Below the pieces are notes generated by a model. The model saw only the letters and a program-made list of their open reading frames with translations. It was not told the DNA's origin and ran no database searches. The translations under genes and the position numbers were made by a program. From positions 1-56,575 of the forward strand of contig JAQYVP010000144.1 of assembly GCA_030145485.1 (NCBI GenBank): a stretch of 56,575 bases of DNA, given 5' to 3'. Shown one piece after another: positions 8,015-52,971 of this stretch. Within the stretch, counting starts at the first letter, position 1. The number at the start of each line of letters is the position of its first letter. The DNA comes from Chromatiales bacterium (GTDB lineage Bacteria > Pseudomonadota > Gammaproteobacteria > Chromatiales > Chromatiaceae).

Positions 8015-8051
8015 GAGCCCCCCATCTTATGGATTTATAGAGGTTCCCTCG

Positions 8052-26815: not shown

Positions 26816-26886
26816 AAACTCCGTCATTCACATGGGCTTTTTGAGAATTTACAATGTGCGTCAAAAACTTGTTGATTTTGAAGAGA

Positions 26887-28479
26887 ATGAAGATCTCAAC
26901 CATTGGTCATGTGATCGTGATGCTGCTCTTGGCTGCAGTTCTACTCTTGTCCGGGGGGTGCTCATCTGTTTTCGTACCTTATGAGGTTAACAACAGGGTA
27001 CAGGAGCAGGCTTACAGTGGTGGAGATACGACTCTTGGCCGTCTGTTTCATGCTGAAACTGCCTCACATCCAGAGTTGTCAGGGGCATACTTGTTGGACA
27101 AGGGAGAAGAATCACTGTTGTGGCGTGGGGTTCTGACGGAACAGGCAGAGAAAAGCATAGATATTCAAACCTTTATCTGGTCGGATGACAACGTGGGAAC
27201 AATTGGCGCCGCCCGACTGCTACAGGCTGCAAAGCGGGGTGTGCATGTCCGAATATTGCTGGACTATGTGACCCTTGATGTTGACAGCAATTACCTGGTT
27301 TGGCTCAATGACCATACCAACATCAGCATTCGTCTCTATAATCCATTTTCGCAGCTGGATGCTTCCATAGGGTCAAAGGTATCCACCCTGCTATCCTCGT
27401 TTAGCAGGCTTAATCGCCGTATGCATAACAAACTCTTTTTGGTCGATGGGAGAGTCGTATTGGTGGGAGGTCGTAACAATGCCGATGAATATTACGACAT
27501 GCACGCTGATATGAATTTTCGTGATCGTGATCTGCTGGTGGTTGGCGACGTACTCCAGAAGGCGCGCCGTGGATTCGATGAATACTGGAACAGCGAATGG
27601 TCTATTGGTATAGATCAGGTTCTTCCCCGTAAGGTTGATCCTCAGCAACGCACTGCCTATTATCAGAAACTGGAATCCTACGCGCGTGAGCCGAAAAACT
27701 ACCCTCCTCGTTTTGACGATGCTCTGAAACGAACCAGAAAGTCCCTGCAAAGGTTGCCCGGGCATCTTTCCTGGGGAAAAGCGGAGATGATTTATGACAT
27801 ACCAGGGAAAAATGAACAGTTAAGCAGTCTGCGAGGATATGGTAAGAGCGGTGAATTTCTGACACGGAGTTTTCTTGAGGCTAAAGAGGAGATCCTGGTT
27901 GAAACACCCTATATGATTACCATGCCAGGCACGCTCGATCTGTTTGCCAGGCTGCAGAAACGTGGCGTACTGGTTCGCGTGCTGACGGACTCGATGGCCT
28001 CTGCCGAAGATGATCTTGTTTTTTCCGCCTATAAGCGGCAGCGGCGTAATATCCTCAGACGCGGTGTGAAGATGTGTGAACTGCGGAGAGACGCTGCAAT
28101 ACGCGAAACGGTTTTTGAACGTTTCCAAAGTATGGAAGAGATGCCGGACATCAGTCTGCATGCCAAAACCGCAGTGATTGACCGGAGGACGCTGCTTATC
28201 GGCTCGTTCAACCTTGACCCGCGCTCGACCCACATCAATACCGAGCATGTGTTTCGCATCGAGAGTCCTGATCTGGCTGAACAGGTCGCCAAAATCATCA
28301 ACACTGACATGGATCTGGAAAATTGCTGGCAGGTCAACATGGATGCAGAGGGTAAATTGACATGGAAAACCTTGCGTGATGGCCGCGAGGAAAGATCCTA
28401 TATTGAACCGGGAGTCACCTTTTTTGAACGGATGCGCCTTCTGTTTTTCATGATGTTGCCTGTGGAGGCCATCTTGTAA
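26887..28479 (+). CDS. Phospholipase D / cardiolipin synthase-like lipoprotein (ClsC/YmdC type)
   Basis: A 530-residue protein with a lipoprotein signal (LLLSGGC, Cys25). It has two complete HKD motifs: HNKLFLVDG with His180, and HAKTAVIDR with His425, the latter followed by IGSFNLDPRS. The PLD superfamily cleaves or transfers phosphatidyl groups; closest by layout are the ClsC-type cardiolipin synthases. As a predicted lipoprotein it would act on the periplasmic face of a membrane. ATG at 26887 is preferred; an in-frame ATG at 26854 would add 11 residues. It opens the accessory region of exported hydrolases and lies 129 bases before the first TPR-CHAT gene. Confidence 0.85.
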   Translation: MKISTIGHVIVMLLLAAVLLLSGGCSSVFVPYEVNNRVQEQAYSGGDTTLGRLFHAETASHPELSGAYLLDKGEESLLWRGVLTEQAEKSIDIQTFIWSDDNVGTIGAARLLQAAKRGVHVRILLDYVTLDVDSNYLVWLNDHTNISIRLYNPFSQLDASIGSKVSTLLSSFSRLNRRMHNKLFLVDGRVVLVGGRNNADEYYDMHADMNFRDRDLLVVGDVLQKARRGFDEYWNSEWSIGIDQVLPRKVDPQQRTAYYQKLESYAREPKNYPPRFDDALKRTRKSLQRLPGHLSWGKAEMIYDIPGKNEQLSSLRGYGKSGEFLTRSFLEAKEEILVETPYMITMPGTLDLFARLQKRGVLVRVLTDSMASAEDDLVFSAYKRQRRNILRRGVKMCELRRDAAIRETVFERFQSMEEMPDISLHAKTAVIDRRTLLIGSFNLDPRSTHINTEHVFRIESPDLAEQVAKIINTDMDLENCWQVNMDAEGKLTWKTLRDGREERSYIEPGVTFFERMRLLFFMMLPVEAIL

Positions 28480-28608
28480 ACACTCTCGTGCGGGGAATCC
28501 CAATGAGTCGAATGGCGCCATGCTAACTGAATGGCTGATATGTTGATTACCCTGGTGGATTACCTCTCGCAATAAACCATGATTGTGTCGAGAAACGGGA
28601 TAATAGAT

Positions 28609-31600: not shown

Positions 31601-31635
31601 ACTATTGGTCGCCTTTTGTCTATTATGGCAACTGA
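28609..31635 (+). CDS. Exported TPR-CHAT cysteine protease, 11 TPRs
   Basis: A protein of about 1008 residues. A signal peptide ends near VSLAQ. Eleven back-to-back 40-residue TPRs follow (residues 76-515), each of the form NNIGxVYxSxGQYDKAIDxYQQALEI. A linker with SRARLLAERIAG precedes a C-terminal CHAT domain (~600-1008). The CHAT catalytic pair is intact: His in HFATHG (residue 867) and Cys in NLSACETGLG (residue 916). CHAT proteases are caspase/separase relatives; TPRs usually bind the partner or substrate. Most studied TPR-CHAT proteins are cytoplasmic, so the signal peptide is notable. ATG at 28609 is chosen for its upstream GGGA; ATG at 28579 would add 10 residues. A close paralogue lies at 36088-40707. 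Confidence 0.88.
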   Translation: MQRITYLPSLFVLSVFCLTVFNPVVSLAQSHQLSDQYRQQAHALSKQGRTLEAAKMHEKSALAEQESPEPRQEKLAIALSHAGFYYYQAGKYGKSIKLHQQSLEISRKLGQEQGIASGLANIGIVYKSWGEFDKANEFYQQALQMLRGIGEENGTATLLNNIGAIYEVRSQYDKAADMYQQALEINKRLGNEAKVAIRLNSIGGLYFLLGRFDKALDVYQQALEVNKKLGREAHTATDLNGMGGVYYSLGQFDKAIDFYQQALEIDKRLGKQAGVATLLNNIGAVYKSRGEYDKAIDLYQQSLEIDKRLGREASIAVVLHNIGRVYDSWGQYDKAIGFYQRALEIDKRLGTKAHMAEDLNSIGGVYLIRGQYEMAVDYYEQALEINRRLGRDEVIAINLSNIGAAYGAWGKYDKSIEPLEQASKINKRLGKKAVIAANFYNIGKVYASRGQFDKAIDLYRQSMEINKELGMEAEFAIGLSTIGSVYKSRGQFDKAIQYYRQAIQLKEKIRKTATGDIRRDYLASQIYTYQSLASAYLNKGDSQGLLDAVEQSRARLLAERIAGIDSEMEIPKLLEVQKGLAGDEAVLLFSNIDHDNFILMVITAKEIAMEEISKESFLAKSQKQYKKPILMLLDKQRGLIPVESKGGKQAIELKKQQADFETAIHYYRTLLTNPVKREETRDFGRLLHALLIEPAGEKLAGKTKITIMPDGILGFLPFETLVDENNNYLVQKYDLRYTQSLTIDKLLQGRDYTRRDERKPLLAMGGAVYDELHYETEMVDNSKQLAWLQKETDLAIEEKRSARNAYVRLGKANWSNLPGTLKEVNKLSAIFKEGDILIGEKVTENMIKEYSKSGKLAKYKVLHFATHGLVVPELPELSAIVLSQFKNEKEGEDGYLRMSEIAKLNLAADFVNLSACETGLGKIVGGEGIVGLTQSFLIAGANGLSVSLWQVADESTAKFMTELYKKVQAIGIGYRKALTDVKRGFINGDNGEQWRSPYYWSPFVYYGN
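28834..30153 (+). repeat. Tandem 120-bp coding repeats (11 TPR units)
   Basis: Eleven uninterrupted units of exactly 120 bases encode the TPR array. The unit ends are conserved as CAACAGGCACTGGAGATC.. and CTTGGC... They are divergent at DNA level, which separates them from a CRISPR or satellite. Confidence 0.85.
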
Positions 31636-33080: not shown

Positions 33081-33208
33081 TCTCAAGAAAGGCCAGAAAA
33101 TCTTGACCTGATCCGTCACCCTGAAACAGCGAAGAAGTCAGGCAGTATCCAGATACTGAATGCAGGGAAAAATTGGCGGCAATACCCCGATTTGATAGAA
33201 CTGCCTTT

Positions 33209-33217
33209 TGGTATAAT
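33209..33217 (+). promoter_or_regulatory. Extended -10 promoter of the WD40-caspase gene
   Basis: TGGTATAAT is a perfect extended -10 (TG-N-TATAAT), with a start expected near 33224. This is 24 bases before the ATG at 33248 and rules against an upstream start at 33173. A -35 is weak, as extended -10 promoters allow. Confidence 0.5.
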
Positions 33218-33247
33218 AGTACAGTGCTCTACAATGGTGATTTTCTC

Positions 33248-34660
33248 ATGGTTTCTATGATGCGCAGGCAGTCTGCTCTGTTGTTGCTTTGCCTCACTCT
33301 TGCAGTCTCGGCACTGTGGGCCGGCGAACCGCCGGATGAACCCATGCTGCGGCTGGAGACCGGGCGCCATACGGCCGCTATTTGGCAAATCGCTAGTGAT
33401 GTCCGGGGACGCTGGCTTGCTACCGCATCTGATGACAAGACCCTGCGTCTCTGGGATAGCACTAATGGCAAGCTGCTGTATACCTGGCGTCTTCCCATTG
33501 GCAGCGGTCATGAGGGCAAACTCTATGCGGTAGCGATGGACCCCGGAGGTGCCTGGTTGGCTGTGGGTGGGTGGTATTCAGATAACTCTGTATATATCCT
33601 CGATCGCACTTCCGGTCGTTTGCGACGGCGACTTGATGGCATAGGGGGCCTGACTCATCACCTCTGCACCTCCGCCGATGAGCGCTGGCTGGCGGCCACA
33701 CTGTGGGGTAACAACGGCATACGAATCTTTGATGCCAAAGACAACTTCCGCCAGATCTTTTCTGACAATAATTACGGGGACAGTAGCTATGGCTGCGCCT
33801 TCAGCCCCGACAGCCAGCGCATAGTCACCAGCAGCCTGGATGGCCTGCTACGCCTCTATCGTTTCACCGGCGAGGGCTTTAAACCTATCACCCAGACCAG
33901 TCTTGCTGGCGGCAAGCAACCCTCCTCAGTTGCTTTTCACCCTGATGGAAGGCATATCGCTGTTGGCTTTAAAGACACCACTGCTGTGCAGGTGGTGGAT
34001 GGTGAAAACCTGGGCCTGCGCTACACTGTCGACACCGTCGGCATCAATAATGGTAACCTGGAAAGTGTCGCCTGGTCCGACGATGGAGTCCGTCTCTTTG
34101 CAGGGGGGAGGCACGGGGGCAGTGATGGCATCGTCAGACCAGTGCTGAGCTGGAGCAACAGCGGTCGCGGCTCGCGCAGAGTCTGGCCCGCAGCAAATAA
34201 CAGTGTGATGAGTCTGAAATCTCTGCCCAACGGAAAGCTGGCTGTGGGGGCCGCCGATCCCGCCCTGCTGCTCTTTGACCGCCAAGGGAATAAGTTGTTC
34301 GACCTGCGTCCCCGCATTGCTGATTTGCGTAACCAGTATAAACATTTTCGTATCTCCAGCGATGGACAACAGCTAGCGTTTGGCTTGAAGGCATTAGGTA
34401 AGGAACCGGTCTGGTTCGATCTAAAAAACCGCCGTCTGCGACAGGGAAAAGTCAGCGCCACCGCCCAGATCCAGACACGTCTTACCGACCTTGGCTACAG
34501 CCTCGGTGCCATCGATGGGAAATCAGGACCGAAGACACGTGCTGCCGCAGCAGCCTATCGCCTGGATAATGGTATCAGCGGCAAGGGATCGGATCGCCGT
34601 CTGCAACAGTCCCTCGGCATCACTCAGTTATCCAGCCCCCGTATTCACGCCCCGGCTTAA
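33248..34660 (+). pseudogene. WD40/caspase protein, 5' part (frameshifted gene)
   Basis: The 470-residue N-terminal portion of a larger gene. The signal peptide ends at ALWA and WD40-type blades follow (LATASDDKTLRLWD, PDGRHIAVGF). A peptidoglycan-binding-like segment with IQTRLTDLGYSLGAIDGK lies near residue 420. The frame ends in TAA at 34658-34660, just after a CCCCC run at 34636-34640. One extra C there would read LSSPPYSRPGLNVINW and continue directly into the downstream frame encoding the caspase domain. So this and 34641-36060 are one gene of about 935 residues split by a one-base deletion, a sequencing error, or -1 slippage. Confidence 0.8.
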
Positions 34661-36060
34661 ACGTCATCAATTGGAAAAGCAAATTCAATCCCAGCCTCAA
34701 CGGGAAGCCACTAATATTGAACCAATATGAAGGATCCCGCAGCCTTGCCATTGCCCCCAATGGAGAGCATTTTCTACTGGGCGCTTGGGGGTCTTTACGC
34801 CTCATAGACGATCAGGGAGAGGAGTTGTGGCAACAATCAGTACCGGATGAAGCCTGGGGCGTCAACATCAGCGGCGATGGTCGTCTTGCGGTAGCCGCCT
34901 TCGGAGATGGCAGCATCCGCTGGTATCGCCTGAGCGATGGCGAGCCTCTGCTCTCGCTCTATATCACCAACGATGCGAAGGAGTGGGTGCTGTGGAGTCT
35001 CAGCAGCTATTATGACGCCAGCCCCGGTGATGACAGGCTGATCGGCTGGCACGTCAATAACGGCAAAGATAAAGTAGCAGATTTCTACACTGCCGCGCAG
35101 ATGCGCGAGCGTTTCTACCGCCCGCAGGTGATCTCCCATATTTTGAGCGAGCTGGATGAAGAGACGGCGCTGGCAAAGGCCGGAGAGCGTGCAGCCACAA
35201 GTATTGCCGAAGGATTGCCGCCGACAGTGGAACTGCTCAGTCCGGTAAATGGCAGCAGTGTTCCGGTCACAGCAAGGCTCACCTGGGAGGGGAGCAAAGC
35301 GGCCCTCGAGGCATTCGTCATCAAGCTGAGGCTCTATGTGCTGGCCATCGGGGTGAGCGACTACGAGGATGACGTCCTCGACCTGCAGTTTGCCGCCAAG
35401 GATGCAAGTGACTTCGCTGATGCTCTCAAAGGTCAGGGAGAGCTTCTTTACCGCGAGGTGCTGGTCAAACTCCTCACCGATGCAAGCAGCGATGACCTGC
35501 TCGATGGCCTCGACTGGCTGCGAAATGAGGTGACCAGCAAGGATGTGGCAATGCTGTTTCTTGCCGGGCACGGGGTCAACGATAGTGACGGGGACTACTA
35601 TTTTCTTCCTCGCAATGCCAACACGGGTCGGCTGCGCCGTACCGCCGTAGCCTACTTCGACATCAAAAAGATTCTCTCCAACCTTGCAGGCAAGACCATT
35701 GCTTTCATCGACACCTGCCACGCTGGCAACATCATGGGGAAAAGACGCGGGGTGGCAGACATCAATGCCGTGATCAATGACCTCAGCGCTGCGGAAAACG
35801 GTGTGGTGGTGTTCGCCAGCTCCAGCGGAAAACAGTACTCACTGGAGGACTCCAAATGGGGCAACGGTGCCTTTACCAAGGCGCTTGTGGAGGGAATTAA
35901 CGGCAAGGCTGACTACACCAAAGATGGCACAATAACAATCAACCAGCTCGATCTCTATCTGAGTGAGCGGGTGAAAAAACTCATCGGCAACCAGCAGATT
36001 CCCACCACCACCAAACCACAGACTATCTCCGACTTTCCGGTGGTGGTGGTTGAACCTTGA
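34641..36060 (+). pseudogene. WD40/caspase protein, 3' part carrying the caspase domain
   Basis: This is the continuation of the gene above in the next frame. As an independent gene the first start would be TTG at 34717, but meaningful coding (NVINWKSKFNPSLNGKPL) begins upstream of it. Remaining blades are followed by a caspase p20-like domain: LYVLAIGVSDY, His in FLAGHGVND (codon at 35569) and Cys in FIDTCHAGN (codon at 35716), so the dyad is intact. The linker before the caspase domain, LSPVNGSSVPVTARLTWEG, looks shorter than I remember in related proteins, suggesting an internal in-frame loss. CHAT gene two starts 27 bases downstream. Confidence 0.8.
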
Positions 36061-36087: not shown

Positions 36088-39000
36088 ATGAGATGCAACA
36101 ATGAATTTCCCCTTGTTCCGGTAGTTTTACTTCTGGTTTTAGCCGGCTTGTGTATACCGTCCTTTTGCCAGGCCCAGAGCCATGAACTGGCAGATCAATA
36201 TTGGCAGGAGGCTCAAGTCCTGAGTAAACAGGGAGAATACCTTGAGGCTGCCCGGATGTATGAAAAATTTGCAGCGGTAGAGCAGGCAAGCCCTGAGCCA
36301 AGGCAGGAAAATCTGGCGAGCCGACTTAATGACACAGGATTACATTATTTTCATAGTGGTCAGTACGACCAAGCCATCACATTCTTCAACCAGGCATTAG
36401 ATATTTTCAGGAGACTTGGCAAGCAGACAGAGGTAGCGACTTTACTCAATAACATCGGTGTTGTGTATAGCTCCAAGTCTCAGTATGGCATGGCTGTTGA
36501 ACTCTACCAAGAGGCTTTAATGGTTTTCAGAATGATTGGCGAAGAGGCGTCGATCGGTAATTTGCTTAACAAACTCGGAGGGGCACATCAATACCTGAAT
36601 CAATTTGACAAAGCCATTGATTTTTACCAACAAGCATTGGAAATTGACAAGCGACTTGGTAATGAGGCAGATATTGTTGTTCGACTCAATGTCATTGCTA
36701 ATCTGTACAATTCCCGTGGTCAGTATGACGAGGCCATTGAACATTACCAACAGGCTCTGGATATTGACAAACGGTTAGGTAATGAGGGGGGAGTTGCTGT
36801 TCGACTCAACAACATCGGCTTGGTGTACAATTTTCGTGGTCAGTATGATAAAGCTCTTGAACTATACCAACAAGCACTGGAGATTGACAAGCGGCTTGGT
36901 AATGAGACGGAGGTTGCCATTCGACTTAACAATATTGGCGGAGTGTATGACTTTCAGGGTCAGTACGACAAGGCCATTGGTTACTACGAACAGGCGCTTG
37001 GGATTGACAAACGGCTTGGTAATGATGCGAATATTGTTATTAGACTCAACAACGTCGGTAATGTGCATAACTCCTTGAGCCAGTACGATAAGGCTATCGA
37101 TTACTACGAACAGGCACTTGAGATTGACAAACGACTGGGAAATGAGGCGAATGTTGTTGTCAGGCTCAACAACATCGGTAATGTGTATAGATCTCAGGGC
37201 CAGTTTGACAAGGCTATCAATTTTTATCAACAGGTACTGGAGATCAATAGGAGGCTAGGTAAGGAAGCATATGTTGCAACAGACATTAGCAACATTGGCG
37301 ACATGTACGACTTATGGGGGAGATTTGACGAGTCCGTCAATTACTATCAACAAGCATTGAAGATCAATAAACGTCTAAGAAATGAGGCGAGCATAGCAAG
37401 AAATCTCACTAGACTTGGTTGGGTGTATAGCGCCCGGGAAGAAGTTGAAAAGGCGATAGGCTATTTTCAACAGGCATTGAAAATCAATGAGCGTCTTGGT
37501 GATGATATAGAGATAGCAAGAAGTCACATCAATATTGGTATGACATATGGCTCTATGGGGCATTCTGACAAGGCTGTTAATTATTATCAACAGGCACTGG
37601 AGATTAACAAGCGGCTTGGGGATGAGGAGGAGATAGCTAGAGGTCTCACCAACATTGGCATGGCTCACAAGGATCAGGGGCACTCTGACAAGGCTATCAA
37701 TTTCTATCTGCAGGCATTGGAGATCAACAAGCGGCTTGGGGATGAGGTGAACATTGCAAGGGGACTCAGTGATATCGGCATGGTATACAAGGATCAAGGG
37801 CAGTATAACAAGTCTATCGAGTTTTATCAGCAGGCATTGGAGATTAACAAGCGGCTAGGGGATGAAATGGAGATCAACAAGCGGCAAGAAAATGAGGTGG
37901 GCATGGCAAGAAACCTTACTAGACTTGGTTGGATATATATCACCCGGGAAAAACATGAAGAGGCTATCGAATATTTTCATCAAGCATTGGAGATTTACAA
38001 GCAGCTTGGGGATGAGGTTGAGATAGCTAGAGGTCTCACCAATATTGGCATGGCGTACAACGCTCAGGAGAATTCTGACAAGGCTGTTAATTATTATCAA
38101 CAGGCATTGGAGATTAACAAGCGGCTTGGGGATGAGGAGGAGATAGCTAGAGGTCTCACCAACATTGGCATGGCTCACAAGAATCAGGGACACCCTGACA
38201 AGGCTATTAGTTTTTATAAACAGGCACTGGAGGTTAACAAGCGGCTTGGGAATGAGGCAAATATTGCAAGTACACTCAGCGATATTGGCATGGTGCACTT
38301 TGATCAGGGAAGGTATGATAAAGCTATCGATTTCTATCTGCAGGCTCTGGTGATTGATAAGCGGCTGGGTAAGGATGCGGGCATTGCAAATCAGCTCACC
38401 AGTATAGCCATGGTGCACTACACTTGGGGACAGTACGATAAGGCCATCAATTTTTATCAGCAGGCGTTGGAGATCAGCAAGCGGCTTGGTGATGAGGTTG
38501 ATATTGCATTAAACCTCACTGCAACTGGAACAGTGTACGATTCCTGGGGACAGTATGACAAGGCCATCGAAGTCTATCAACAGGCGCTGGAAATCAACAA
38601 GCGGTCCGGAGAGGAGTTAGGCATAGCGCTGGGATTCAGCGCTATTGGAAAGGTGTATTATTCATGGGGCCAGTACGACAAGGCGATTGAATACTTTCGG
38701 CAAGCTCTCGATCTTTCCAGGAAAATCGGGAAGGAGGAGGCGATTGCAGTTCCGCTCAACAATATCGGATTGGTGTACAACTCTCTGGGGCAGTATGACG
38801 AGGCGATCGATTTCTTTCAACAGGCATTGGATATCAACAAGCGGCTAGGTAAAGAGGCGTTTATTGCGACTGGACTCAGTAACATCGGCGGTGTTTACTA
38901 CTCCTGGATGCAGTACGATAAGGCGATCGATCTCTATCAGCAGGCCCTGGACATCAACAAGAGGCTTGGTAGAAAGGCAGAGGTTGGAGTGGGGCTCAAC

Positions 39001-40707
39001 AATATCGGCTTGGTGTACGATGCACTGCACCAGCCTGAGAATGCAATCAACATTCTTAAAGAGTCGCTTGAGATCAGTAAACTGCTTGGGAGGGAGATGG
39101 AGATTGGAAATGCTCTCAGCAATATTGGTTTTGTGTATGATTCCCTGGGCCAATATGAAAAAGCCATTCAATACTTTCGGCAATCCATTCAACTCAAGGA
39201 GAAAATCCGCAAAACCGCCACTGGAGACATCCGCCGTGACTACCTCGCCAGCCAGATTGGCACCTACCAGTCTCTGGCCTCTGCCTATCTGAAAAAAGGT
39301 GATCCCCAGGGAGTGCTGGATGCCGTCGAACAGAGTCGCGCCCGGTTGCTGGCCGAGCGCATTGCCGGCATCGATTCAACAATGGAGATCCCTAAGCTTA
39401 CAGAGGTGCAAAAGGGCCTGACCGTAGATGAGGCAGTGCTGCTCTTCAGCAACATCGATCATGACAACTTTATCCTCATGGTGATCACCGCTAAGGAGAT
39501 CGCCATGAGAGAAATCTCTAAAGAGAGCTTTCTGGCTAAAAGCCAAATGGAGTATAAAAAACCCATCCTCATGTTGCTGGAGAAACAGCGGGGACTCATT
39601 CCAGTAGAGAGCAAAGAGGGTGAGCCGGCCTTTGAGGAGAAAAAACAGCAGGCCGACTTTGAGACTGCCATCCACTACTACCGCACCCTGCTCACCAATC
39701 CGTTAAAACAGCAGGAGGCCAGAAACTTTGGCCGTCTGCTGCATGCACTGCTCATCGAGCCTGCCGTGGAGAAACTGGCGGGGAAAACAAAAATCACCAT
39801 CATGCCGGATGGCATCCTCGGTTTTCTTCCCTTTGAGACACTGATGGATGAGAACAACAACTATCTCGTTCAGAAGTACGACCTTCGCTATACCCAGAGT
39901 CTGATCATCGACAAGCTGCTGCAGGGCAGGGACTATACAAACAAAAACAAGAGAAAACCGCTGCTGGCTATGGGTGGGGCTGTCTACGAGCCAATCAAGG
40001 TTGCAGGTGCGCCTATCGAAAATACTCGGCAGCTTGCCCTACTGCAGCAGGAAGCCGATAAAATCACCGAGGAAAAACGCTCGGCTCGCAACGCCTACGG
40101 CCAACTTGGTTTTGGAAACTGGTCCAACCTGCCTGGCACCCTGGAGGAGGTGAACGCACTTTCATCCATCATCAATGATGGCGACACGCTCATCGGCGAC
40201 AAGGTCACCGAAAACAGGATCAAAGAGTATTCAGACAGCGGTAGACTGGCACAATACAAAGTACTTCACTTTGCCACCCACGGCCTGGTAGTGCCGGAAC
40301 TCCCGGAACTCTCGGCCATCGTCCTTTCGCAGTTCAAAAACGAAAAAGAGGGCGAAGATGGTTACCTGCGCATGGGTGAGATCGCCAAACTCGAACTGGC
40401 TGCCGACTTCGTCAACCTCTCGGCCTGCGAGACCGGCCTTGGGAAAATTGTCGGCGGCGAGGGCATCGTTGGTCTTACCCAATCGTTCCTCATTGCCGGC
40501 GCCAACGGCCTCTCCGTCTCCCTGTGGCAGGTTGCCGATGCGTCCACCGCCAAGTTCATGACCGAACTCTTCAAAAAAGTGCAAAGCACCGGTATTGGAT
40601 ACAGAGACGCGCTAACCGAAGTGAAGCGGCAATTCATCAACGGCGACTACGGCGAACAGTGGCGCAGCCCCTACTACTGGTCGCCTTTTGTCTATTATGG
40701 CAACTAA
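36088..40707 (+). CDS. Exported TPR-CHAT cysteine protease, 24 TPRs
   Basis: A 1539-residue paralogue of the protein at 28609-31635. A signal peptide ends near FCQAQ. Twenty-four 40-residue TPRs span residues 77-1046, with one 10-residue insertion in unit 13. A linker and C-terminal CHAT domain follow, with His1398 in HFATHG and Cys1447 in NLSACETGLG. From the last TPR to the C-terminus the two paralogues are nearly identical, while the arrays differ greatly in length. Units 10-13 and 14-17 are a duplicated block. It sits 27 bases behind the WD40-caspase gene and probably shares its transcript. The substrate is unknown; a likely partner is one of the neighbouring exported hydrolases. Confidence 0.9.
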   Translation: MRCNNEFPLVPVVLLLVLAGLCIPSFCQAQSHELADQYWQEAQVLSKQGEYLEAARMYEKFAAVEQASPEPRQENLASRLNDTGLHYFHSGQYDQAITFFNQALDIFRRLGKQTEVATLLNNIGVVYSSKSQYGMAVELYQEALMVFRMIGEEASIGNLLNKLGGAHQYLNQFDKAIDFYQQALEIDKRLGNEADIVVRLNVIANLYNSRGQYDEAIEHYQQALDIDKRLGNEGGVAVRLNNIGLVYNFRGQYDKALELYQQALEIDKRLGNETEVAIRLNNIGGVYDFQGQYDKAIGYYEQALGIDKRLGNDANIVIRLNNVGNVHNSLSQYDKAIDYYEQALEIDKRLGNEANVVVRLNNIGNVYRSQGQFDKAINFYQQVLEINRRLGKEAYVATDISNIGDMYDLWGRFDESVNYYQQALKINKRLRNEASIARNLTRLGWVYSAREEVEKAIGYFQQALKINERLGDDIEIARSHINIGMTYGSMGHSDKAVNYYQQALEINKRLGDEEEIARGLTNIGMAHKDQGHSDKAINFYLQALEINKRLGDEVNIARGLSDIGMVYKDQGQYNKSIEFYQQALEINKRLGDEMEINKRQENEVGMARNLTRLGWIYITREKHEEAIEYFHQALEIYKQLGDEVEIARGLTNIGMAYNAQENSDKAVNYYQQALEINKRLGDEEEIARGLTNIGMAHKNQGHPDKAISFYKQALEVNKRLGNEANIASTLSDIGMVHFDQGRYDKAIDFYLQALVIDKRLGKDAGIANQLTSIAMVHYTWGQYDKAINFYQQALEISKRLGDEVDIALNLTATGTVYDSWGQYDKAIEVYQQALEINKRSGEELGIALGFSAIGKVYYSWGQYDKAIEYFRQALDLSRKIGKEEAIAVPLNNIGLVYNSLGQYDEAIDFFQQALDINKRLGKEAFIATGLSNIGGVYYSWMQYDKAIDLYQQALDINKRLGRKAEVGVGLNNIGLVYDALHQPENAINILKESLEISKLLGREMEIGNALSNIGFVYDSLGQYEKAIQYFRQSIQLKEKIRKTATGDIRRDYLASQIGTYQSLASAYLKKGDPQGVLDAVEQSRARLLAERIAGIDSTMEIPKLTEVQKGLTVDEAVLLFSNIDHDNFILMVITAKEIAMREISKESFLAKSQMEYKKPILMLLEKQRGLIPVESKEGEPAFEEKKQQADFETAIHYYRTLLTNPLKQQEARNFGRLLHALLIEPAVEKLAGKTKITIMPDGILGFLPFETLMDENNNYLVQKYDLRYTQSLIIDKLLQGRDYTNKNKRKPLLAMGGAVYEPIKVAGAPIENTRQLALLQQEADKITEEKRSARNAYGQLGFGNWSNLPGTLEEVNALSSIINDGDTLIGDKVTENRIKEYSDSGRLAQYKVLHFATHGLVVPELPELSAIVLSQFKNEKEGEDGYLRMGEIAKLELAADFVNLSACETGLGKIVGGEGIVGLTQSFLIAGANGLSVSLWQVADASTAKFMTELFKKVQSTGIGYRDALTEVKRQFINGDYGEQWRSPYYWSPFVYYGN
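36316..39225 (+). repeat. Tandem 120-bp coding repeats (24 TPR units), with segmental duplication
   Basis: Twenty-four 120-base units plus 30 extra bases. Units 10-13 (37396-37905, including the extra 30) and 14-17 (37906-38385) correspond at an offset of 510 bases. Within them 37562-37671 and 38072-38181 differ at one of 110 positions, showing a recent duplication or conversion. Confidence 0.85.
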
Positions 40708-44322: not shown

Positions 44323-45390
44323 TCATTTTGGTAAAAATGCATAGGCCTCATTGAATGCATGTACAGGGTATGCCCGATAGGCTGGTCCGCCCTTTTGGCT
44401 GGTGTTGTCAAAATTTCCAAATGTCTCTCGATAAACAAAATAGTACTGCTTTCCCTGGCGGATGTAACCAAGGATAACCACACCGTGTCCGGACATCTTT
44501 GGCAGAGATATTCTCGCTACCGAATCATTGGTGATCACACCGCCGCTGGTTGCAAAGCGCACGCGGATTCCTGCAAATACCGGGCCGCTGTTTTTCAGGG
44601 CATCAATGATCAGCTTGTTATGAGCTGAGGGATTGCGGCTGACCGAGAGAGAGTTTTTGTAACCGAATAGCTTGCGTATTGTCACGGGGGGCATCTCTCC
44701 CGGTTTGATTCTATGTGTGACGTCTTGAAGCACCTGGTCGGGAATGGTCAATGGATTGTTGATGCTGCCTCCCATCTCTATGATCCTTGTGAATGCCTCC
44801 ATGTCGTAGGAGATTGGCGTTCTCTCTACAGGATCCATGTGCAGTGTCAGCAGCGGGTAGTCATCGGCTGTATCCTGTTCTTCCGCCAGATGGTAATACC
44901 AGGCATCCAGCTTACGGTGATCCATGCCGTGCTCATTCATTCCACTTAGCCATGAGCGGTAACCCTTGAGCTGCCTGCCACGTCGAAGGTTATGCCAGTC
45001 GACAATCGTGGATGATGAAATGCTCATGCATTTGTAATGTCCCATCCGACGCTCAGGGTCATGAGTCCATTTCTCGCTCGGAGAATAGTTTAAGTTGACA
45101 TTGTTTACCCAGGCTGAATTCTCTTCGCTATTTTTATAGGGCAGTGTGGTCAATGTATAGGGAAGAATAAACATCTCGCCATCCGGCAAAGGGGTGCTTC
45201 CCTCTTTTAGCCATTTTACACGCAACGGCAATCCCTGCTCTGAGATCCAGATTGATGAACTGCTCTGCGGTAAGCGTGGCAAGGTTTCCGATTGCATCGC
45301 AGTGTCGATCAGCTTGTGATCCGGGAGTGACAGGCAACCGGAAAGCAGCCCTGTGAGCAGCAGCAGATAAATCCATCGAAAAGTTGTCAT
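44323..45390 (-). CDS. Lipoprotein resembling papain-like (C1) cysteine peptidases
   Basis: A 355-residue protein with lipobox LLSGC (Cys19). Features suggest the papain fold. Cys121 in GHYKCMSISSSTIVDW occupies a helix-start position. His302 in SGHGVVILGYIRQGKQYYF matches the C1 histidine strand. FVYRETFGNFDN stands where C1 enzymes have a NSWG-type motif, with Glu in place of the Asn. It may be an active variant or a degenerate binding protein. It is divergent from the caspase gene at 45626; the 235 bases between hold both promoters. The assignment is by pattern only. Confidence 0.55.
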   Translation of the reverse strand: MTTFRWIYLLLLTGLLSGCLSLPDHKLIDTAMQSETLPRLPQSSSSIWISEQGLPLRVKWLKEGSTPLPDGEMFILPYTLTTLPYKNSEENSAWVNNVNLNYSPSEKWTHDPERRMGHYKCMSISSSTIVDWHNLRRGRQLKGYRSWLSGMNEHGMDHRKLDAWYYHLAEEQDTADDYPLLTLHMDPVERTPISYDMEAFTRIIEMGGSINNPLTIPDQVLQDVTHRIKPGEMPPVTIRKLFGYKNSLSVSRNPSAHNKLIIDALKNSGPVFAGIRVRFATSGGVITNDSVARISLPKMSGHGVVILGYIRQGKQYYFVYRETFGNFDNTSQKGGPAYRAYPVHAFNEAYAFLPK

Positions 45391-45625: not shown

Positions 45626-47767
45626 ATGATGAAAATAGCGGGTATCCTCCGTGGTTCGCTTGTTGCATGCCTCTGCTTCGTTTTTTATGTGGTGATTTCA
45701 ACACCCCTATTAGCATCCAGTCAGTATGCCTTGCTTGTGGGGGTGACTGAATATCCGAGTCTGCCCGATGAAGAGCAGTTATTTGGTCCCGGCAATGATG
45801 TTGAATTGCTTGCACGCCTGCTTCGTGAAAGGGGATTTGATCAAAAGAACATCAATGTGCTGACGAATAAACGCGGAGAAGCTGTGCAGCCGACACGCAA
45901 GGCAATTCTCGGTGCATTGAATATATTGACTGAAAAATTGCAGCGGGATGATTTTGTCTACCTGCATTTTTCCGGACATGGCTCGCAGCAGCCGCAAGCT
46001 AAGAGCCAGTCGAATCATGAAACTGACGGCCTTGACGAGATATTTCTCCCCACCGATATCGGACAATGGAATGATGATGGTGCGCAGGTCGAAAACGCTA
46101 TTACTGATAATGAAATGAACCATGCAATCACAGCAATGCGTCAAAAAGGCGCTTTTGTATGGGCGGTATTCGATAGCTGTCATTCAGGGACAATGACACG
46201 CGGTAATCCTCAACCGGATGTGCGTTATCGCAAGGTCTCCCCTGGACTGCTGGGCATCCCTGCGGGGAGATTGAAGGCGGCTACTGTGCGCCACCGGGGA
46301 AAAGTCGATGATTTGCAGTCCGAGCAGCAACCTGGTGATGAGAAGGGAACGGGCGGTTATATCGGTTTTTTTGCATCCCAGACCACCGAGACGACACCGG
46401 AGATCGATCTGCCGCGTGGACACGAGAGACGCAAGCCTTATGGCCTCTTCAGTTATACATTGGCGGAAATTCTTCAATCAGGCGCATCCATGACCTACAG
46501 GCAGGCCGGCCAACTGATACTGCAGCGTTATATGAGTCAAAATATGCGCATGGCAACCCCGATGTTTGAAGGTGGTGATTATCTCGATGCTCCTCTGTTC
46601 GGCATGGATGGCGGCAGAGAGCGTATCCTGCAGTGGCAGCTTGACCTTGTCGATTTTCACTGGACGAATCCTTCCGGAGCATTGCACCAGGTGGAGAGAG
46701 GATCCCTGTTCGCCATTTTGCCTGATGCGGCCGCCGCAAATGATCAGCTTCTAGGTTATGCGCTTGTCAAAGAGTCGACAGAGTTTACGAGCACCCTTGA
46801 GCCACGGGCAGATGAAGACCGGCAAGCACTGGCGGGAGTGAAGCCTGACAGCAAAAGTTATGCTCGTCTGCTGGAACCAGCGATCAGCATGGTGCTGCGT
46901 ATGGCATTGCCGCCGGAACCAGCCTCATCAGTAGGCAGCGAGGCACAGGCGTATGCACTTCTGCAGCAGATGTCACAGAATGAAAACTCGCAAGGCATCA
47001 GCATAGAATGGATGGATAGTGACCAGGAAGCTGACCTGCGTCTTGCTATCATGGACAACCAGCTTTGGTTGTTATCTGCAACCGGTGAATTGATTCCGGA
47101 TGGTGCGGACAAATCCCTCTCGGTTCGGCTTGACAGGCCTGCGAATGAACTCGAGGAGGTTTTGTCAGCCAGTTTCCAGAGCATTGCAAAAGTTTTGAAT
47201 TTATTGAAAATCGCGAATTCTGTTGAAAATGGAGAGTATTCGGCAAAGATTGAGATGGAGCTGTTGCAGACTCCGGCGGCAGGCGGCGGAGAGAGAGCTA
47301 TTGAGAGCGGCAGGATTACAGAATTCAGAGAAGGGGAAAAGATCCGCTTCAGACTGAAAAATCATAGCTCAACAGCTGTTGATGTAACCCTGTTATTCAT
47401 CGATAGCCAGTACGGGGTGACAGCCATGTATCCTCTATCCGGGCAAAGTAATCGAATCAGTACGGGTGGCCTACTCTCTGGTGTTGAATTCAGTGTGACG
47501 GCTGATACACTTGGTGTTGAGCACATGCTGGTGATAGCAGTGAAAGCACAGCCGGGAACAGCGCATTCGGATTTCAGTTATCTTGAGCAGGAACGCTTGC
47601 AGAAGACAAAAGAGACAGCAAAAACCAGAGGGATAGGGGCGAGTAACGTGTATGCTCTGATCAAAAGAGCCGGTTTCGGGGGCGTTGCAACACGTGGCCT
47701 GCGACCAAGAAAATCAGCGTCGGATGAGACGGCGATGAAACTTTTCAGCTGGCGAGTACTGCAATAG
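45626..47767 (+). CDS. Exported caspase-family (C14) peptidase with C-terminal DUF4384-like domain
   Basis: A 713-residue protein. The signal peptide ends near PLLAS. A metacaspase-type p20 domain follows: YALLVGVTEYPSL, His118 in HFSGHGSQ, Cys185 in VFDSCHSG, and FFASQTTETTPE. The second half has a long region of unknown fold and a DUF4384-like segment, EKIRFRLKNHSSTAVDVTLL. The ATG at 45626 is chosen because GGGAG stands five bases upstream and the signal peptide follows; an upstream frame from 45533 lacks support. It is first in a probable three-gene operon with the esterase and the WD40-caspase. Confidence 0.85.
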   Translation: MMKIAGILRGSLVACLCFVFYVVISTPLLASSQYALLVGVTEYPSLPDEEQLFGPGNDVELLARLLRERGFDQKNINVLTNKRGEAVQPTRKAILGALNILTEKLQRDDFVYLHFSGHGSQQPQAKSQSNHETDGLDEIFLPTDIGQWNDDGAQVENAITDNEMNHAITAMRQKGAFVWAVFDSCHSGTMTRGNPQPDVRYRKVSPGLLGIPAGRLKAATVRHRGKVDDLQSEQQPGDEKGTGGYIGFFASQTTETTPEIDLPRGHERRKPYGLFSYTLAEILQSGASMTYRQAGQLILQRYMSQNMRMATPMFEGGDYLDAPLFGMDGGRERILQWQLDLVDFHWTNPSGALHQVERGSLFAILPDAAAANDQLLGYALVKESTEFTSTLEPRADEDRQALAGVKPDSKSYARLLEPAISMVLRMALPPEPASSVGSEAQAYALLQQMSQNENSQGISIEWMDSDQEADLRLAIMDNQLWLLSATGELIPDGADKSLSVRLDRPANELEEVLSASFQSIAKVLNLLKIANSVENGEYSAKIEMELLQTPAAGGGERAIESGRITEFREGEKIRFRLKNHSSTAVDVTLLFIDSQYGVTAMYPLSGQSNRISTGGLLSGVEFSVTADTLGVEHMLVIAVKAQPGTAHSDFSYLEQERLQKTKETAKTRGIGASNVYALIKRAGFGGVATRGLRPRKSASDETAMKLFSWRVLQ

Positions 47768-47821
47768 TGTGATAACTACTCCGGCTGTATTTCTCTGTTC
47801 TCCAGATACAGGATGTTACCC

Positions 47822-49609
47822 ATGATTGGAAGAATTTATATATCGCTCATTCTGCTGTTTTTTTTGGTAATTCAGAATGTCAATGCAGCTGCTGTACGCC
47901 AGTTTGTTTTGCTGGATCCGCTATCTGTTGATTCATCACAGTGCGAAAGCTTTAGCAATGCGTTCAGGCAACAGCTGGAGGGTGATGCTCACGGGGCGGT
48001 GCTTCTGTTTCTTCCCCCTGTGGCACAAAGCAGTTCCTATACCCGGGCTTCCGCAAAAGGACTGATCGGGATTGGCCAGAATAAGTCTGTTGTAATAGAG
48101 CAGTTGCAAACACTGCTGAAAGCAGGTGACAAGATAACATACCTGGCATTTCAGCAGACATCGACAGCCGCTGTCGTTGAGCGATTGAGCATTGTTGCTG
48201 CACTAAAACAGGCTGCTTTGAGAGTCATCCTGTTCAGAGATAGGGGAGATGCTCCATCTCTTTCCGCTACAGCCCTTCATCAGTCGCAGGCCAGAGTAGA
48301 TGAAGTTTTCTGTTATGACCCTGGCGAGGCCCCCTTCGGTTACCCTGCAGTACTGCGAAAAACCCGACAATTGCTCGCATCCTGGCTCAATATTCCCCCT
48401 CATTTTATCTCGCCCGAGAGTGATTTAATTCACAGCCTCGGTGCAGATCATATCCAGGTGTATGAGATGCTGCAGAAACTGAGCAGGGCATTTCGAGTGA
48501 AAGCCCCGCAGGATGAGCTGACTGTTGTTGCAGATATTGTCGCTTATATCCAAGGGGCGGAGAGTATCTCCATGCACAAAGGCAAGGTGGAGAAGCAGCA
48601 ATCCTATATTCAAACAGTCTACTATGGCACAAATCGCCAAAGAACAGGGATCAAAAATCCCGAAGAGTTCTATAGTGGCAAACGCGAGCCTGATGCAAAA
48701 CTACACTATGGCAGTGTGGCGGTCTCTATTCCCGGCTCACATAAGAGCGGAGCCCTGGAAACACCATTTATGGGTTTTGAGTTTCTCCGTAACCCGAAAC
48801 AGCATCTCTATATTAAAACCGTGAACGAGATTTCCCGTGACCTGTTTTTTCAGATGCTGAATGAGAAACTTGCCAACCCCGGCAGTGATGAGTTGTCGCA
48901 GGACGCCATCGTATTCATTCATGGTTTCAACGTCGCTTTTGAAGAGGCGGCGCGCAGGACTGCTCAGATCGTCTTCGATATCAATTTCCCCGGTCTGCCT
49001 CTTTTTTTCTCATGGCCATCCGACGCAAAATTGTTGGGGTATATGGCCGACCGGGAAGATGCAGTCTGGAGCGTGGGGTATCTGGAGCAGTTTCTGAACG
49101 AGTTGCAGAATCAAACAGGTGTTAAACGTTTTCATCTGATTGCGCATAGCATGGGCAACCAGGTTCTCATCGGCGCACTGCATCAAATTGCGATGAGAAG
49201 TCCACCCGCAGCACCGCTTTTCGAAAATATCATACTTGCAGCGCCGGATTTTGATGCTGAACTCTTCGAGCAGCAGATTGCACCAGAGGTTCTCGGGCTG
49301 GCCAACAACTGGACGATCTACGCATCAGACAAGGACATGGCGTTGAATTTCTCGACAAGCGTAAACAGTGCCGTGCGCCTTGGCATCCCGTTGACGGCGT
49401 TGGCAGGGATGCAGGTGATCGATGCAACAGGTATCGAGGTCTCGCCATGGAATGTTCCCGAGTTCCACTCCTACTATGCAACCAAGAGACAGGTCATCAA
49501 GGATGTTGAAGCGACTATTCAGCGTAAAAGTGTCGCTCAGCGTGGTCTGGTGTTAAGAACCAGGAATGACATCTCTTACTGGGAGTTGAAGAAGCCAGAG
49601 GAAGAATGA
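47822..49609 (+). CDS. Exported alpha/beta hydrolase (DUF900) with degenerate ACP-like domain
   Basis: A 595-residue protein. After a signal peptide (ending NVNAA) comes a domain of unknown type. An acyl-carrier-protein-like domain follows at residues ~180-245, ending DIVAYIQG. Its helix-II motif reads SLGADHIQVYEML, so His210 stands where ACP has the phosphopantetheine serine. The C-terminal half is a DUF900-type alpha/beta hydrolase with VFIHGFNV and nucleophile Ser443 in IAHSMGNQ, and EFHSYY near the end may supply the histidine. ATG at 47822 has AGGA eight bases before it. It overlaps the next gene by four bases (ATGA). Confidence 0.8.
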   Translation: MIGRIYISLILLFFLVIQNVNAAAVRQFVLLDPLSVDSSQCESFSNAFRQQLEGDAHGAVLLFLPPVAQSSSYTRASAKGLIGIGQNKSVVIEQLQTLLKAGDKITYLAFQQTSTAAVVERLSIVAALKQAALRVILFRDRGDAPSLSATALHQSQARVDEVFCYDPGEAPFGYPAVLRKTRQLLASWLNIPPHFISPESDLIHSLGADHIQVYEMLQKLSRAFRVKAPQDELTVVADIVAYIQGAESISMHKGKVEKQQSYIQTVYYGTNRQRTGIKNPEEFYSGKREPDAKLHYGSVAVSIPGSHKSGALETPFMGFEFLRNPKQHLYIKTVNEISRDLFFQMLNEKLANPGSDELSQDAIVFIHGFNVAFEEAARRTAQIVFDINFPGLPLFFSWPSDAKLLGYMADREDAVWSVGYLEQFLNELQNQTGVKRFHLIAHSMGNQVLIGALHQIAMRSPPAAPLFENIILAAPDFDAELFEQQIAPEVLGLANNWTIYASDKDMALNFSTSVNSAVRLGIPLTALAGMQVIDATGIEVSPWNVPEFHSYYATKRQVIKDVEATIQRKSVAQRGLVLRTRNDISYWELKKPEEE

Positions 49610-52600
49610 CACTCCTAATGCAGGCAAACCACATGTTCCCCTCCTGTATTGGAGCAGGAGTACTGAGCCGCCTCACTGTTTTATTCTCTGTCTTGCTTTT
49701 TTGCCACACGATCCATGCCGAAGTGATTGGCAAGCCATTTGTGCAACTCGGGCATATCCGTCATTCCATCAACTCGGTCGCATTCAGTCCTGACGGTCAC
49801 TATTTTCTCTCCGGCAGTGGCGATAAGAGCATCAAACTGTGGGACGTTGCCTCTGGTAAAGAGATACGTACATATTCAGGGCATGATAATTCCGTAAACG
49901 CTGTTGTATTTAGCCCTGATGGCCGTTTATTTCTCTCTGGCAGCAATACAAGTATGAGGCTTTGGGATGTCTCTAGCGGAGAGATGATCTATCAGTTTTC
50001 AGTTGATTGGATTAAGTCAATCTTGTTCAGCGCTGATAGTCAATCTCTCCTCTCAGGCTTAGGTGGTGAAACGATCTCTGTCACTCAGTGGGATGCAAAC
50101 ACTGGAAAAGAGAGAGTTACAGTATCTGGAAATTCAAAATTTTCTACTCCGCTGGTCTTTAGCCCTGATGGCGAATATGTTATTTCGGCGCCTGATCCCG
50201 AACTCTTCTCCGTCATCGAGCAGGGGCAGAGGGTTCTAACCAGTGGCGGGGCGACTATGACCCTGGTTGAGGTTGCCACTGGCCGGGAGGTTCGTCGTTT
50301 TACAGGCCACACAGACTACATTCTCTCTGCAGCATTTACTCCAGATGGCCATTTTCTCGCTTCCAGCGGGAATGATATGACTCTGAGGCTGTGGAGTGTC
50401 TCTACTGGTGAAGAGATACGCAAATTTTCAGACCAGACGAACCTTACTGATGCAATGGGGTATGCTTTTGACCTGCTCTCTATGGAGTTAGAGAGTGAAA
50501 TGGGGCATTCCGTAGAGATGATGGAGGAAGAGATTAGATATAAACATTCTGTATATACTCTCGACTTTAGTCCGGATGGTCAATATCTCGTCTCCGCCAG
50601 TAATAAAGGCGTGCGCTTGTGGGAGGTCTTCAGCGGAAAAATGATACGGGAATTTTCTGGCCATTCAGATCGAGTCAACAGTGTTAAATTCAGCCCGGAC
50701 GGCCGTTTTATTCTCGCAGGCAGTGAAGACTCCAGCTTGAAGCTGTGGAAAGTCTACAACGGTAAGGAGGTGAGGGAGTACTCAGGTGATTCGGATTTGC
50801 TTTCCTCTCTCTCTTTCAGTCCGGACGGTCAGCAGCTGATTTCGGGAAGTTGGGACAAGAGCCTGAGATTATGGGATATCACGACGAGTAGGATGACACG
50901 CAAATTTACAGGTCACTCCGGCGCTGTTTCATCCGTATCCTTTAGCCCGGATGGGAATTATGTTCTCTCTGCAAGTTCAGACATGAGCATGCGATTGTGG
51001 AATGCTGAAAATGCTAAACAGACCCGGCAATTTTCAGTTTCCGGGCCTGATGTCTCATCAGTTGCTTTCAGCCCTGATGGGCGTTATGCGCTCTCATCCG
51101 GGAGTGCCGGCACTAGTATTTGGGATATTTCCAGTGGTGCGGAATCGCAGCATTTTTCGAATCATACACCGTATATGGTTTCTTCCTCCTCCTTCAGTTC
51201 GGATGGAAAGTATCTCGTCTCCAGACACTATGACAAGAGTTTAAGATTGTGGAGTCTCACTTCAGGAAAAGAGGTGCGGAAATATTCAGGTTATGCAGAA
51301 GGGGTGAGATATACGTTCAGCCCTGATGGTCGCTATCTCATACAGACAGATCTGAAATTCACTGGTGAAAAAATAGAAAAACCATTCTCTCTGCTTGCTC
51401 TTTCTACAGGTGAAGAAATTCGACAATTTTCAGCCTCTGAACTGGATATCCCGGTTGTCTTTAGCAGTGATAGCGGTCAACTTCTCTCAGCGCACGCTGA
51501 TGGCAAATTCATGAAATTATGGGATGTCTCCAGCGGTGAGGAGATAGCAAGGTTTCCTGATCACTTAAGAGTGGGCTATCAGGTTGTATTTAGTCCAGAC
51601 GGCCATTTGATTGCTTCTGCTTACTCTGACGGGAGTTTCAAACTCTTCGATGCAATACGGTTTGAGGAGCTGGCCAGCTACTACGGTTTCTCCGATGGCG
51701 AATGGATTGTGATAACGCCTGATGGCTATTTCAATGCATCACCTTATGGGGCGGAACACATCAATGTCCTGACTTCACCAATGCGTGTCGCCGGAATTGA
51801 CCAGTACTATGAAACTTTTTACCGTCCCGGTATCGTGAATGCTGCGATACAGGGAAACAGGATCGATACCGGATTGCGTTTGGCTGACGTCAAACCGGCG
51901 CCACTCATCGAGATTATTAACACTCCGAATGAGACATCAGACCCCTCAGTCGGAGTAACATTGAAACTCATCGACCAGGGAGGCGGTATTGGGGATATCA
52001 GGATTTTTCTTAATGGCACAGCGATTCTTGCTGATAATGGGCGAGGGTTAAAGGTTGATAAGAGTAGTGATAAAGCGATCTATAAAAATTTCTCCCTGAG
52101 GTTGCTAAACGGTAAAAATGAGATCAAGGCTATTGCGTACAATGCGGAAAACAGCATGAACTCACGTGATGCAAGGAAGACGATCATGGCTGAAATTCTA
52201 TCTGCGAAGCCAGATCTGCACGCCCTGGTTATCGGGATCGATGAATTTAAAAACTCCGGACTTAACCTCAATTACGCTGCTTCTGATGCCAGGCTTTTCT
52301 CTGAGACACTGAAAAAACATTCAAGCTCACTATTTGAAAATATTCATGTGACCCTGTTAACCACGAGTGAGCAGACAGGCAAGGTGCAAATTATTGGGGA
52401 GTTCGAACGGGCGCAGAAGCTTGATCCGGATGATCTTTTTGTTTTATTCGTCGCTTCTCACGGTATGCTGGATGCTGGAAATTACTACTTGATCACATCA
52501 AATGTAGGCTCACTGTCAACGAAACGTCTCAAGCAAGACGCCATGAGCCAGGATGATCTGAAAAGATTGATTGCCAATATCCCGACACAAAAAAAATTGA

Positions 52601-52971
52601 TTATCCTCGATACCTGCGGTTCACAGGCGCTCGGAGACTCTCTTCAAGTTGCGATGATGACCAGGGGTCTGAGTGAGTATACGGCGATGAAGGTGCTCAG
52701 CCGTGCGATCGGTTCTACGATTCTCTCGGCATCAACAGCAACTCAGGATGCACTGGAGGGGTATCAGGATCACGGCCTTTTTAGTTATGTTGTTTCTGAA
52801 GGGTTGGCTGGCAAGGCAGATGCTAATGGCGATGGATTTATCAAGACTACGGAACTTGCTGACTATGTTGATGACGTTGTTCCCGAAATTGCAGAAAAAG
52901 AGTTTAATCGTGCTCAATATCCTGCCGTCAGTCCAGGTGGGCAGGCGTTTCCGATTACGGAGGTAAGATGA
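49606..52971 (+). CDS. Exported WD40-caspase protein
   Basis: A 1121-residue protein. The signal peptide ends near HTIHA. About a dozen WD40 repeats (residues ~45-700) carry the motif VAFSPDGxYxLSGSxDxSIKLWD. A linker ends with the caspase-like domain at residues ~870-1110: ALVIGIDEFKNSGLN, His952 in FVASHGMLD, Cys1004 in IILDTCGSQ, and a C-terminal EF-hand-like KADANGDGFIKTTEL. The same architecture, in decayed form, is at 33248-36060. It is translationally coupled to the hydrolase gene upstream. The beta-propeller probably recognises a partner and the caspase domain cleaves; the target is unknown. Confidence 0.88.
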   Translation: MTLLMQANHMFPSCIGAGVLSRLTVLFSVLLFCHTIHAEVIGKPFVQLGHIRHSINSVAFSPDGHYFLSGSGDKSIKLWDVASGKEIRTYSGHDNSVNAVVFSPDGRLFLSGSNTSMRLWDVSSGEMIYQFSVDWIKSILFSADSQSLLSGLGGETISVTQWDANTGKERVTVSGNSKFSTPLVFSPDGEYVISAPDPELFSVIEQGQRVLTSGGATMTLVEVATGREVRRFTGHTDYILSAAFTPDGHFLASSGNDMTLRLWSVSTGEEIRKFSDQTNLTDAMGYAFDLLSMELESEMGHSVEMMEEEIRYKHSVYTLDFSPDGQYLVSASNKGVRLWEVFSGKMIREFSGHSDRVNSVKFSPDGRFILAGSEDSSLKLWKVYNGKEVREYSGDSDLLSSLSFSPDGQQLISGSWDKSLRLWDITTSRMTRKFTGHSGAVSSVSFSPDGNYVLSASSDMSMRLWNAENAKQTRQFSVSGPDVSSVAFSPDGRYALSSGSAGTSIWDISSGAESQHFSNHTPYMVSSSSFSSDGKYLVSRHYDKSLRLWSLTSGKEVRKYSGYAEGVRYTFSPDGRYLIQTDLKFTGEKIEKPFSLLALSTGEEIRQFSASELDIPVVFSSDSGQLLSAHADGKFMKLWDVSSGEEIARFPDHLRVGYQVVFSPDGHLIASAYSDGSFKLFDAIRFEELASYYGFSDGEWIVITPDGYFNASPYGAEHINVLTSPMRVAGIDQYYETFYRPGIVNAAIQGNRIDTGLRLADVKPAPLIEIINTPNETSDPSVGVTLKLIDQGGGIGDIRIFLNGTAILADNGRGLKVDKSSDKAIYKNFSLRLLNGKNEIKAIAYNAENSMNSRDARKTIMAEILSAKPDLHALVIGIDEFKNSGLNLNYAASDARLFSETLKKHSSSLFENIHVTLLTTSEQTGKVQIIGEFERAQKLDPDDLFVLFVASHGMLDAGNYYLITSNVGSLSTKRLKQDAMSQDDLKRLIANIPTQKKLIILDTCGSQALGDSLQVAMMTRGLSEYTAMKVLSRAIGSTILSASTATQDALEGYQDHGLFSYVVSEGLAGKADANGDGFIKTTELADYVDDVVPEIAEKEFNRAQYPAVSPGGQAFPITEVR

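Follow-up and report, generated by a model that had tools for sequence, protein, structure and literature searches.

An acyl carrier protein fold without its attachment serine in a clade of exported-looking DUF900 hydrolases

Acyl carrier proteins (ACPs) have a very old and constrained fold that is tied to the phosphopantetheine arm, and they hold acyl chains in a pocket within a helical bundle. They also take part in assemblies outside fatty acid synthesis, including MukBEF, Nfs1-ISD11-ACP, complex I and MmpL5-AcpM, in which the ACPs are separate and normally loadable proteins. Ser-less ACP-like domains occur in multidomain synthases, which are cytoplasmic. DUF900 hydrolases (PF05990), for their part, have been described as carrying an N-terminal export-type signal and having an unknown function, in an account whose section 2.5.12 mentions neither an ACP nor a vWA domain (PMC11878206).

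We analyzed a window of 56,575 nucleotides (the whole stretch of DNA under study, contig JAQYVP010000144.1 of a Chromatiales bacterium) that encodes a protein combining these elements. It shares the hydrolase domain of DUF900 hydrolases and belongs to a separate, ACP-bearing clade. Compared with ACPs (PF00550; 6lvu, 2ehs and E. coli AcpP), its family is similar in profile, predicted fold and DLxAD loop but is Ser-less in 10 of 11 members, leader-bearing, hydrolase-fused and less acidic. Like the ACPs of the complexes above, the domain has the ACP fold outside fatty acid synthesis, but it is built into an enzyme and has no attachment residue; it resembles the Ser-less synthase domains in having an ACP fold apparently without carrier function, differing in that the synthases are cytoplasmic. 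Among the titles and abstract openings of the literature searched, neither an exported Ser-less ACP domain nor an ACP-DUF900 protein was found. The gene and its parts are as follows.

47822..49609, + strand: ACP-DUF900 gene, 595 aa, from its open reading frame and translation (alternative in-frame ATG at 47813)
47822..47887, + strand: signal-peptide-like leader, residues 1-22 (hydropathy of 3.03 over 12 residues; cleavage site placed by eye)
47894..48316, + strand: probably decayed vWA-like region, residues 25-165 (VWA_2 in the same region of the relative P0002)
48347..48559, + strand: predicted ACP-fold domain without the carrier Ser, residues 176-246 (PF00550, solved ACPs, AlphaFold2 model and fold search)
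48449..48451, + strand: His210, codon CAT, at the phosphopantetheine Ser position (sequence, alignment to the DSL of ACPs and the column in 11 members)
48461..48463, + strand: Tyr214, carrier position +4 (aromatic in all but one of the 11 members; compared with Ser-bearing carriers)
48560..48607, + strand: loose Lys-containing linker, residues 247-262 (composition; pLDDT <50 at residues 250-259)
48608..49591, + strand: DUF900 alpha/beta hydrolase, residues 263-590 (PF05990)

A sequence-only reading of this DNA had claimed an ACP pattern in residues ~180-245 (48359-48556), with the attachment Ser replaced by His, in an exported hydrolase. The pattern was borne out by profile, solved structures and predicted fold alike. 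PF00550 matched the whole protein above its curated cutoff of 20.8 (29.0 bits, E = 1.3e-6) and the isolated domain more strongly (33.5 bits, E = 5.3e-8), and NCBIfam ACP models also matched the domain with scores under their curated cutoffs. With each family domain scanned singly at E up to 1, PF00550 was found in 10 of 11. Searching solved structures with a profile of the 11 members (E up to 1) returned 122 distinct sequences, headed by Aquifex ACP 2ehs (E = 1.9e-16), and the best 60 of the 122 were all named as ACP or mitochondrial ACP except PigH and CalE8. AlphaFold2, run on residues 170-256 with 11 sequences, predicted the four-helix ACP fold rather than a different one (mean pLDDT 87.2, pTM 0.76), with helices spanning residues 5-20, 41-54 and 67-83 of the model. 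Foldseek searches with this model gave 29 matches with E no higher than 0.001, including 6lvu (E = 5.6e-5, TM 0.78/0.87), and VIA-align superposed the same apo-ACP at 1.1 A over 75 residues (Z 13.2). ACPs were at or near the top of both rankings, with two chains of the chloroplast FtsHi motor complex just above 6lvu in VIA-align (Z 13.4); because helical bundles can attain such Z values, the sequence profile carries more weight. Judged by profile and predicted fold, residues 176-246 are a genuine ACP homologue. A chance pattern as the source of the likeness was ruled out by the solved-ACP profile match and Foldseek.

The carrier column aligned gap-free with the Ser of the DSL motif in Aquifex ACP 2ehs, and the claimed replacement by His210 held: its CAT codon falls in this column, and as model residue 41, the first of helix 41-54, it opens helix II, where a functional carrier would have its attachment Ser. 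The comparison of homologues that the sequence-only reading had proposed gave H, Q, R, S, H, E, P, H, Q, Q and F across the 11 members, leaving 10 without Ser. By entropy, the column ranked 58 of 71 in conservation. In contrast, the preceding Asp ranked 4 (retained in 9 of 11) and that of the DL pair ranked 2 (Ser205 in the window protein), indicating that the DLxAD loop has been kept but the nucleophile has not. The sole Ser-bearing member, L090, has Gly instead of Asp before its Ser and sits nested next to members with H and Q in the tree, and L034 has a Ser one residue past the carrier position. A catalytic or metal-binding His210 was considered and rejected, with His occurring in just three of the 11 members; since the position varies freely, a special role for this residue is not supported. 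These alignments give good support to a non-carrier reading, as the normal route of loading appears closed to 10 of the 11 members. The suggestion in the sequence-only reading that the fold was reused stands as well, and both the ACP fold and the missing Ser recur in relatives.

The residue four positions further on, Tyr214 in the window protein, is Tyr or Phe in 10 of 11 family members and His in L036. By comparison, it is Val (7), Met (2) or Leu (2), and never aromatic, in 11 Ser-bearing carrier domains from six member genomes, the last three of which were read by eye (Fisher p = 3.4e-5, which is descriptive because the sequences inside each set are related). We take this position to be that of Val40 in E. 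coli ACP, at the mouth of the pocket. An ordinary DSL carrier was present in each of the six genomes, where PF00550 matches numbered 15 (4 exported-looking family members and the 11 Ser-bearing domains), with L090 and L131 falling short of E 0.001 in their own genomes. Net charge was -1 for the window domain and -8 to +1 across the family, less acidic than E. coli AcpP, presumably at -15.

The remainder of the protein is dominated by the hydrolase, which matched PF05990 far above its cutoff (165.3 bits versus 20.5, E = 2e-48). Ser443 (within AHSMG), Asp505 and His549 were invariant in all 11 members and would form a Ser-Asp-His catalytic triad, with Asp505 as the putative acting acid. Hydropathy revealed a hydrophobic leader in 11 of 11 members, and that of the window protein resembles a Sec signal peptide, which together with the PF05990 match bears out the claim of an exported-looking hydrolase; the leader suggests export itself. 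An extra region lies between the leader and the ACP domain in the window protein, L033, L034 and L090. In the window protein, residues 25-165 had no Pfam match and low confidence in the full-length AlphaFold2 model, and the same N-terminal region of P0002 (the L034 protein) matched VWA_2 (E = 2.3e-10), so this is probably a decayed vWA-like region. The linker holds Lys or Arg in 11 of 11 members, and in 8 of 11 its share of them exceeds that in the hydrolase, with no excess in L033, L034 and L089; basic linkers, being weak and non-uniform as a feature, were left out of our main claim. As read from sequence, family members consist of a hydrophobic leader, an ACP domain and a DUF900 hydrolase; in some, a vWA-like region precedes the ACP domain.

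A single match spanning the ACP and hydrolase parts occurred in 2 of 146 genomes from the window's own taxonomic family (G000 and G009) and in 4 of 369 from a sample of its class (G000, G282, G328 and G429), while in a phylum sample 9 of 398 genomes matched at E up to 1e-70, with the ACP part spanned only by the window's own. The families of G282, G328 and G429 contributed 1 of 54, 2 of 4 and 1 of 3 genomes, respectively, and the four genomes searched around G328 added L131. Contigs of named genomes gave no match to the single protein, but a two-sequence alignment revealed 56 loci there, six of which are full ACP-bearing members: L033 (Deltaproteobacteria MAG), L034 (Chromatiales MAG; G009 has this protein too), L035 (Nitrospinaceae MAG), L036 and L037 (Hyphomicrobiales and Hyphomicrobiaceae MAGs, respectively) and L038 (Proteobacteria MAG). 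A seventh, L088 from a Methylumidiphilus bin, is a broken copy, in which the ACP-DUF900 gene (7673-8483) has in-frame stops and an extra stretch inside the ACP part. In a plasmid collection, 442 records matched; no record covered 80% of the protein in a single stretch, and all 10 matches listed began at residue 263 or later. The alignment set (n = 11) comprised the window protein, L033-L038, L089, L090, L091 and L131, most relatives coming from metagenome bins. Rows repeating L034 (L004 and L103) or other members (L121, L130, L132 and L133) were left out, as was the stop-broken L088, which enters only the 12-locus protease comparison below.

In a tree of 95 hydrolase domains, all 11 ACP-bearing proteins formed one clade (support 0.996) containing no ACP-less member. 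A recent local insertion was ruled out by this single clade with distant members. The ACP part had its full length in 11 of 11 members, which represent several groups of proteobacteria as well as a Nitrospinaceae bin. Its divergence was the faster of the two: pair identity averaged 0.29, versus 0.49 in the hydrolase. Estimates of dN/dS for the ACP part were 0.20 (L037/L038) and about 0.14 (L091/L131, with dS saturated), compared with 0.09 and 0.11 for the hydrolase, indicating that the ACP part is constrained, but less so than the enzyme. Such ratios point to purifying selection on the domain.

Genes around the window's ACP-DUF900 gene include the following.

26854..28479, + strand: phospholipase-D-like lipoprotein in the same cluster (PF13091, E = 4.4e-39)
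44323..45390, - strand: lipoprotein-like protein without a Pfam match (49-51% identical proteins in L035 and L134, beside ACP-DUF900 genes)
45626..47767, + strand: exported-looking caspase (C14; PF00656, E = 2.2e-17), start taken at 45626, ending 54 bases upstream of the ACP-DUF900 gene
49606..52971, + strand: WD40-caspase-like protein (WD40 matches), overlapping the ACP-DUF900 gene by 4 bases

Over its length, the caspase shares 36% identity with a protein encoded beside L090. The caspase domain of the downstream protein matched NF047832 under the curated cutoff (E = 2.7e-18) and our own caspase profile at E = 1.2e-87, a profile built partly from this same protein. Upstream of the ACP-DUF900 gene there are also genes for TPR-CHAT, patatin and phospholipase-D proteins, and four other loci (L035, L135, L136 and L137) have phospholipase-D-like genes 41-48% identical to the window's. 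Two TPR-CHAT proteins of the cluster (28579-31635 and 36088-40707) have long TPR arrays and signal-peptide-like leaders. At 33173-36060, WD40 and caspase-like parts are encoded by two overlapping-frame ORFs, either a frameshift or a natural split; in L036 (2418-5336) they form one 973-aa ORF, 38% and 41% identical to those of the window. Overall, a caspase or CHAT gene was found at 9 of 12 ACP loci versus 12 of the 49 loci of DUF900 relatives that lack the ACP domain (Fisher p = 0.0018), a contrast that may be flattered because the protease profiles were built from ACP loci, locus lengths are unequal and loci are related. Searches with the caspase/CHAT profiles revealed none within the analyzed DNA of the L037, L038 (only 5.1 kb) and L088 loci. 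In G585, a caspase, a DUF4384 domain (below cutoff) and DUF900 are fused in one 1072-aa protein without an ACP domain, tying the hydrolase to a caspase.

The explanation we favor, and consider probable, is that one exported-looking DUF900 clade gained an ACP homologue once and that this homologue is now a non-carrier docking or regulatory module. After a single acquisition by this hydrolase clade, the domain would have retained the ACP fold and DLxAD loop and lost the phosphopantetheine Ser in 10 of 11 members, and the Tyr or Phe at +4 may occupy the former acyl pocket. The domain would most likely place or gate the hydrolase in the cell envelope through protein-protein docking or regulation, in the vicinity of presumably exported caspase/CHAT proteases and phospholipases from the same clusters, which are its candidate partners. 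As nearly all relatives are without the attachment point, the old fold appears to have taken on a different function close to caspase-like proteases. Counted against this reading are the Ser of L090, the loci L037, L038 and L088 at which no caspase or CHAT gene was seen, the ACP-less fusion in G585, the faster divergence of the ACP part and the metagenome-bin origin of most relatives.

The main rival, which we consider unlikely, is that the ACP-like domain serves as a prodomain or as an inhibitory cap and that a neighbouring clan CD protease cuts the linker, releasing or activating the hydrolase. The low pLDDT of the linker and its basic residues, in excess over the hydrolase in most members, fit this explanation, as do the caspase/CHAT genes linked to ACP loci and the statement, in PMC6426788, that orthocaspases cleave after basic residues. 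However, L033, L034 and L089 lack the excess, and at L037 and L038 the linkers are basic yet caspase/CHAT genes were not seen nearby. The ACP fold could instead bind a lipid or ester substrate non-covalently and present it to the hydrolase, in keeping with the acyl pocket of ACPs and the phospholipase-like genes in the clusters, but on the geometry we assume, the aromatic +4 residue of most members is expected to narrow the pocket mouth, and we regard such binding as very unlikely.

Continued carrier function, whether by loading before the protein leaves the cytoplasm or by use of a different residue, would account for the preserved fold and loop and for the Ser of L090 and the shifted Ser of L034, but it is highly improbable given that 10 of the 11 members have no Ser at the position, that the replacements share nothing and that the L090 Ser follows Gly within a group of H and Q members. 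It is scarcely credible, too, that the domain is a functionless, decaying remnant: its faster divergence would be expected, but full length across distant groups, the dN/dS values and a clade holding no ACP-less member all argue otherwise.

Returning to a docking or regulatory module, a specific version would have exported caspase/CHAT proteases control lipid hydrolases, with the Ser-less ACP as a built-in adaptor linking the hydrolase to a protease or sensor. We rate this version as decidedly unlikely; if true, it would represent an undescribed extracytoplasmic system, an envelope-located analogue of adaptor-domain signalling. More generally, a fold kept across distant bacteria, apparently moved from the cytoplasm and with the arm dropped, suggests that the scaffold alone is valuable, and the clade is a clean place to ask what role a cargo-free ACP surface has. 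DUF900 is also now tied to gene clusters for exported-looking caspase and CHAT proteins. The ACP-less DUF900 loci L052, L057, L059, L067, L069 and L072, several of them Rhodobacterales relatives, likewise lie near both caspase-like and CHAT genes, indicating that the link between DUF900 and clan CD proteases is wider than the ACP family.
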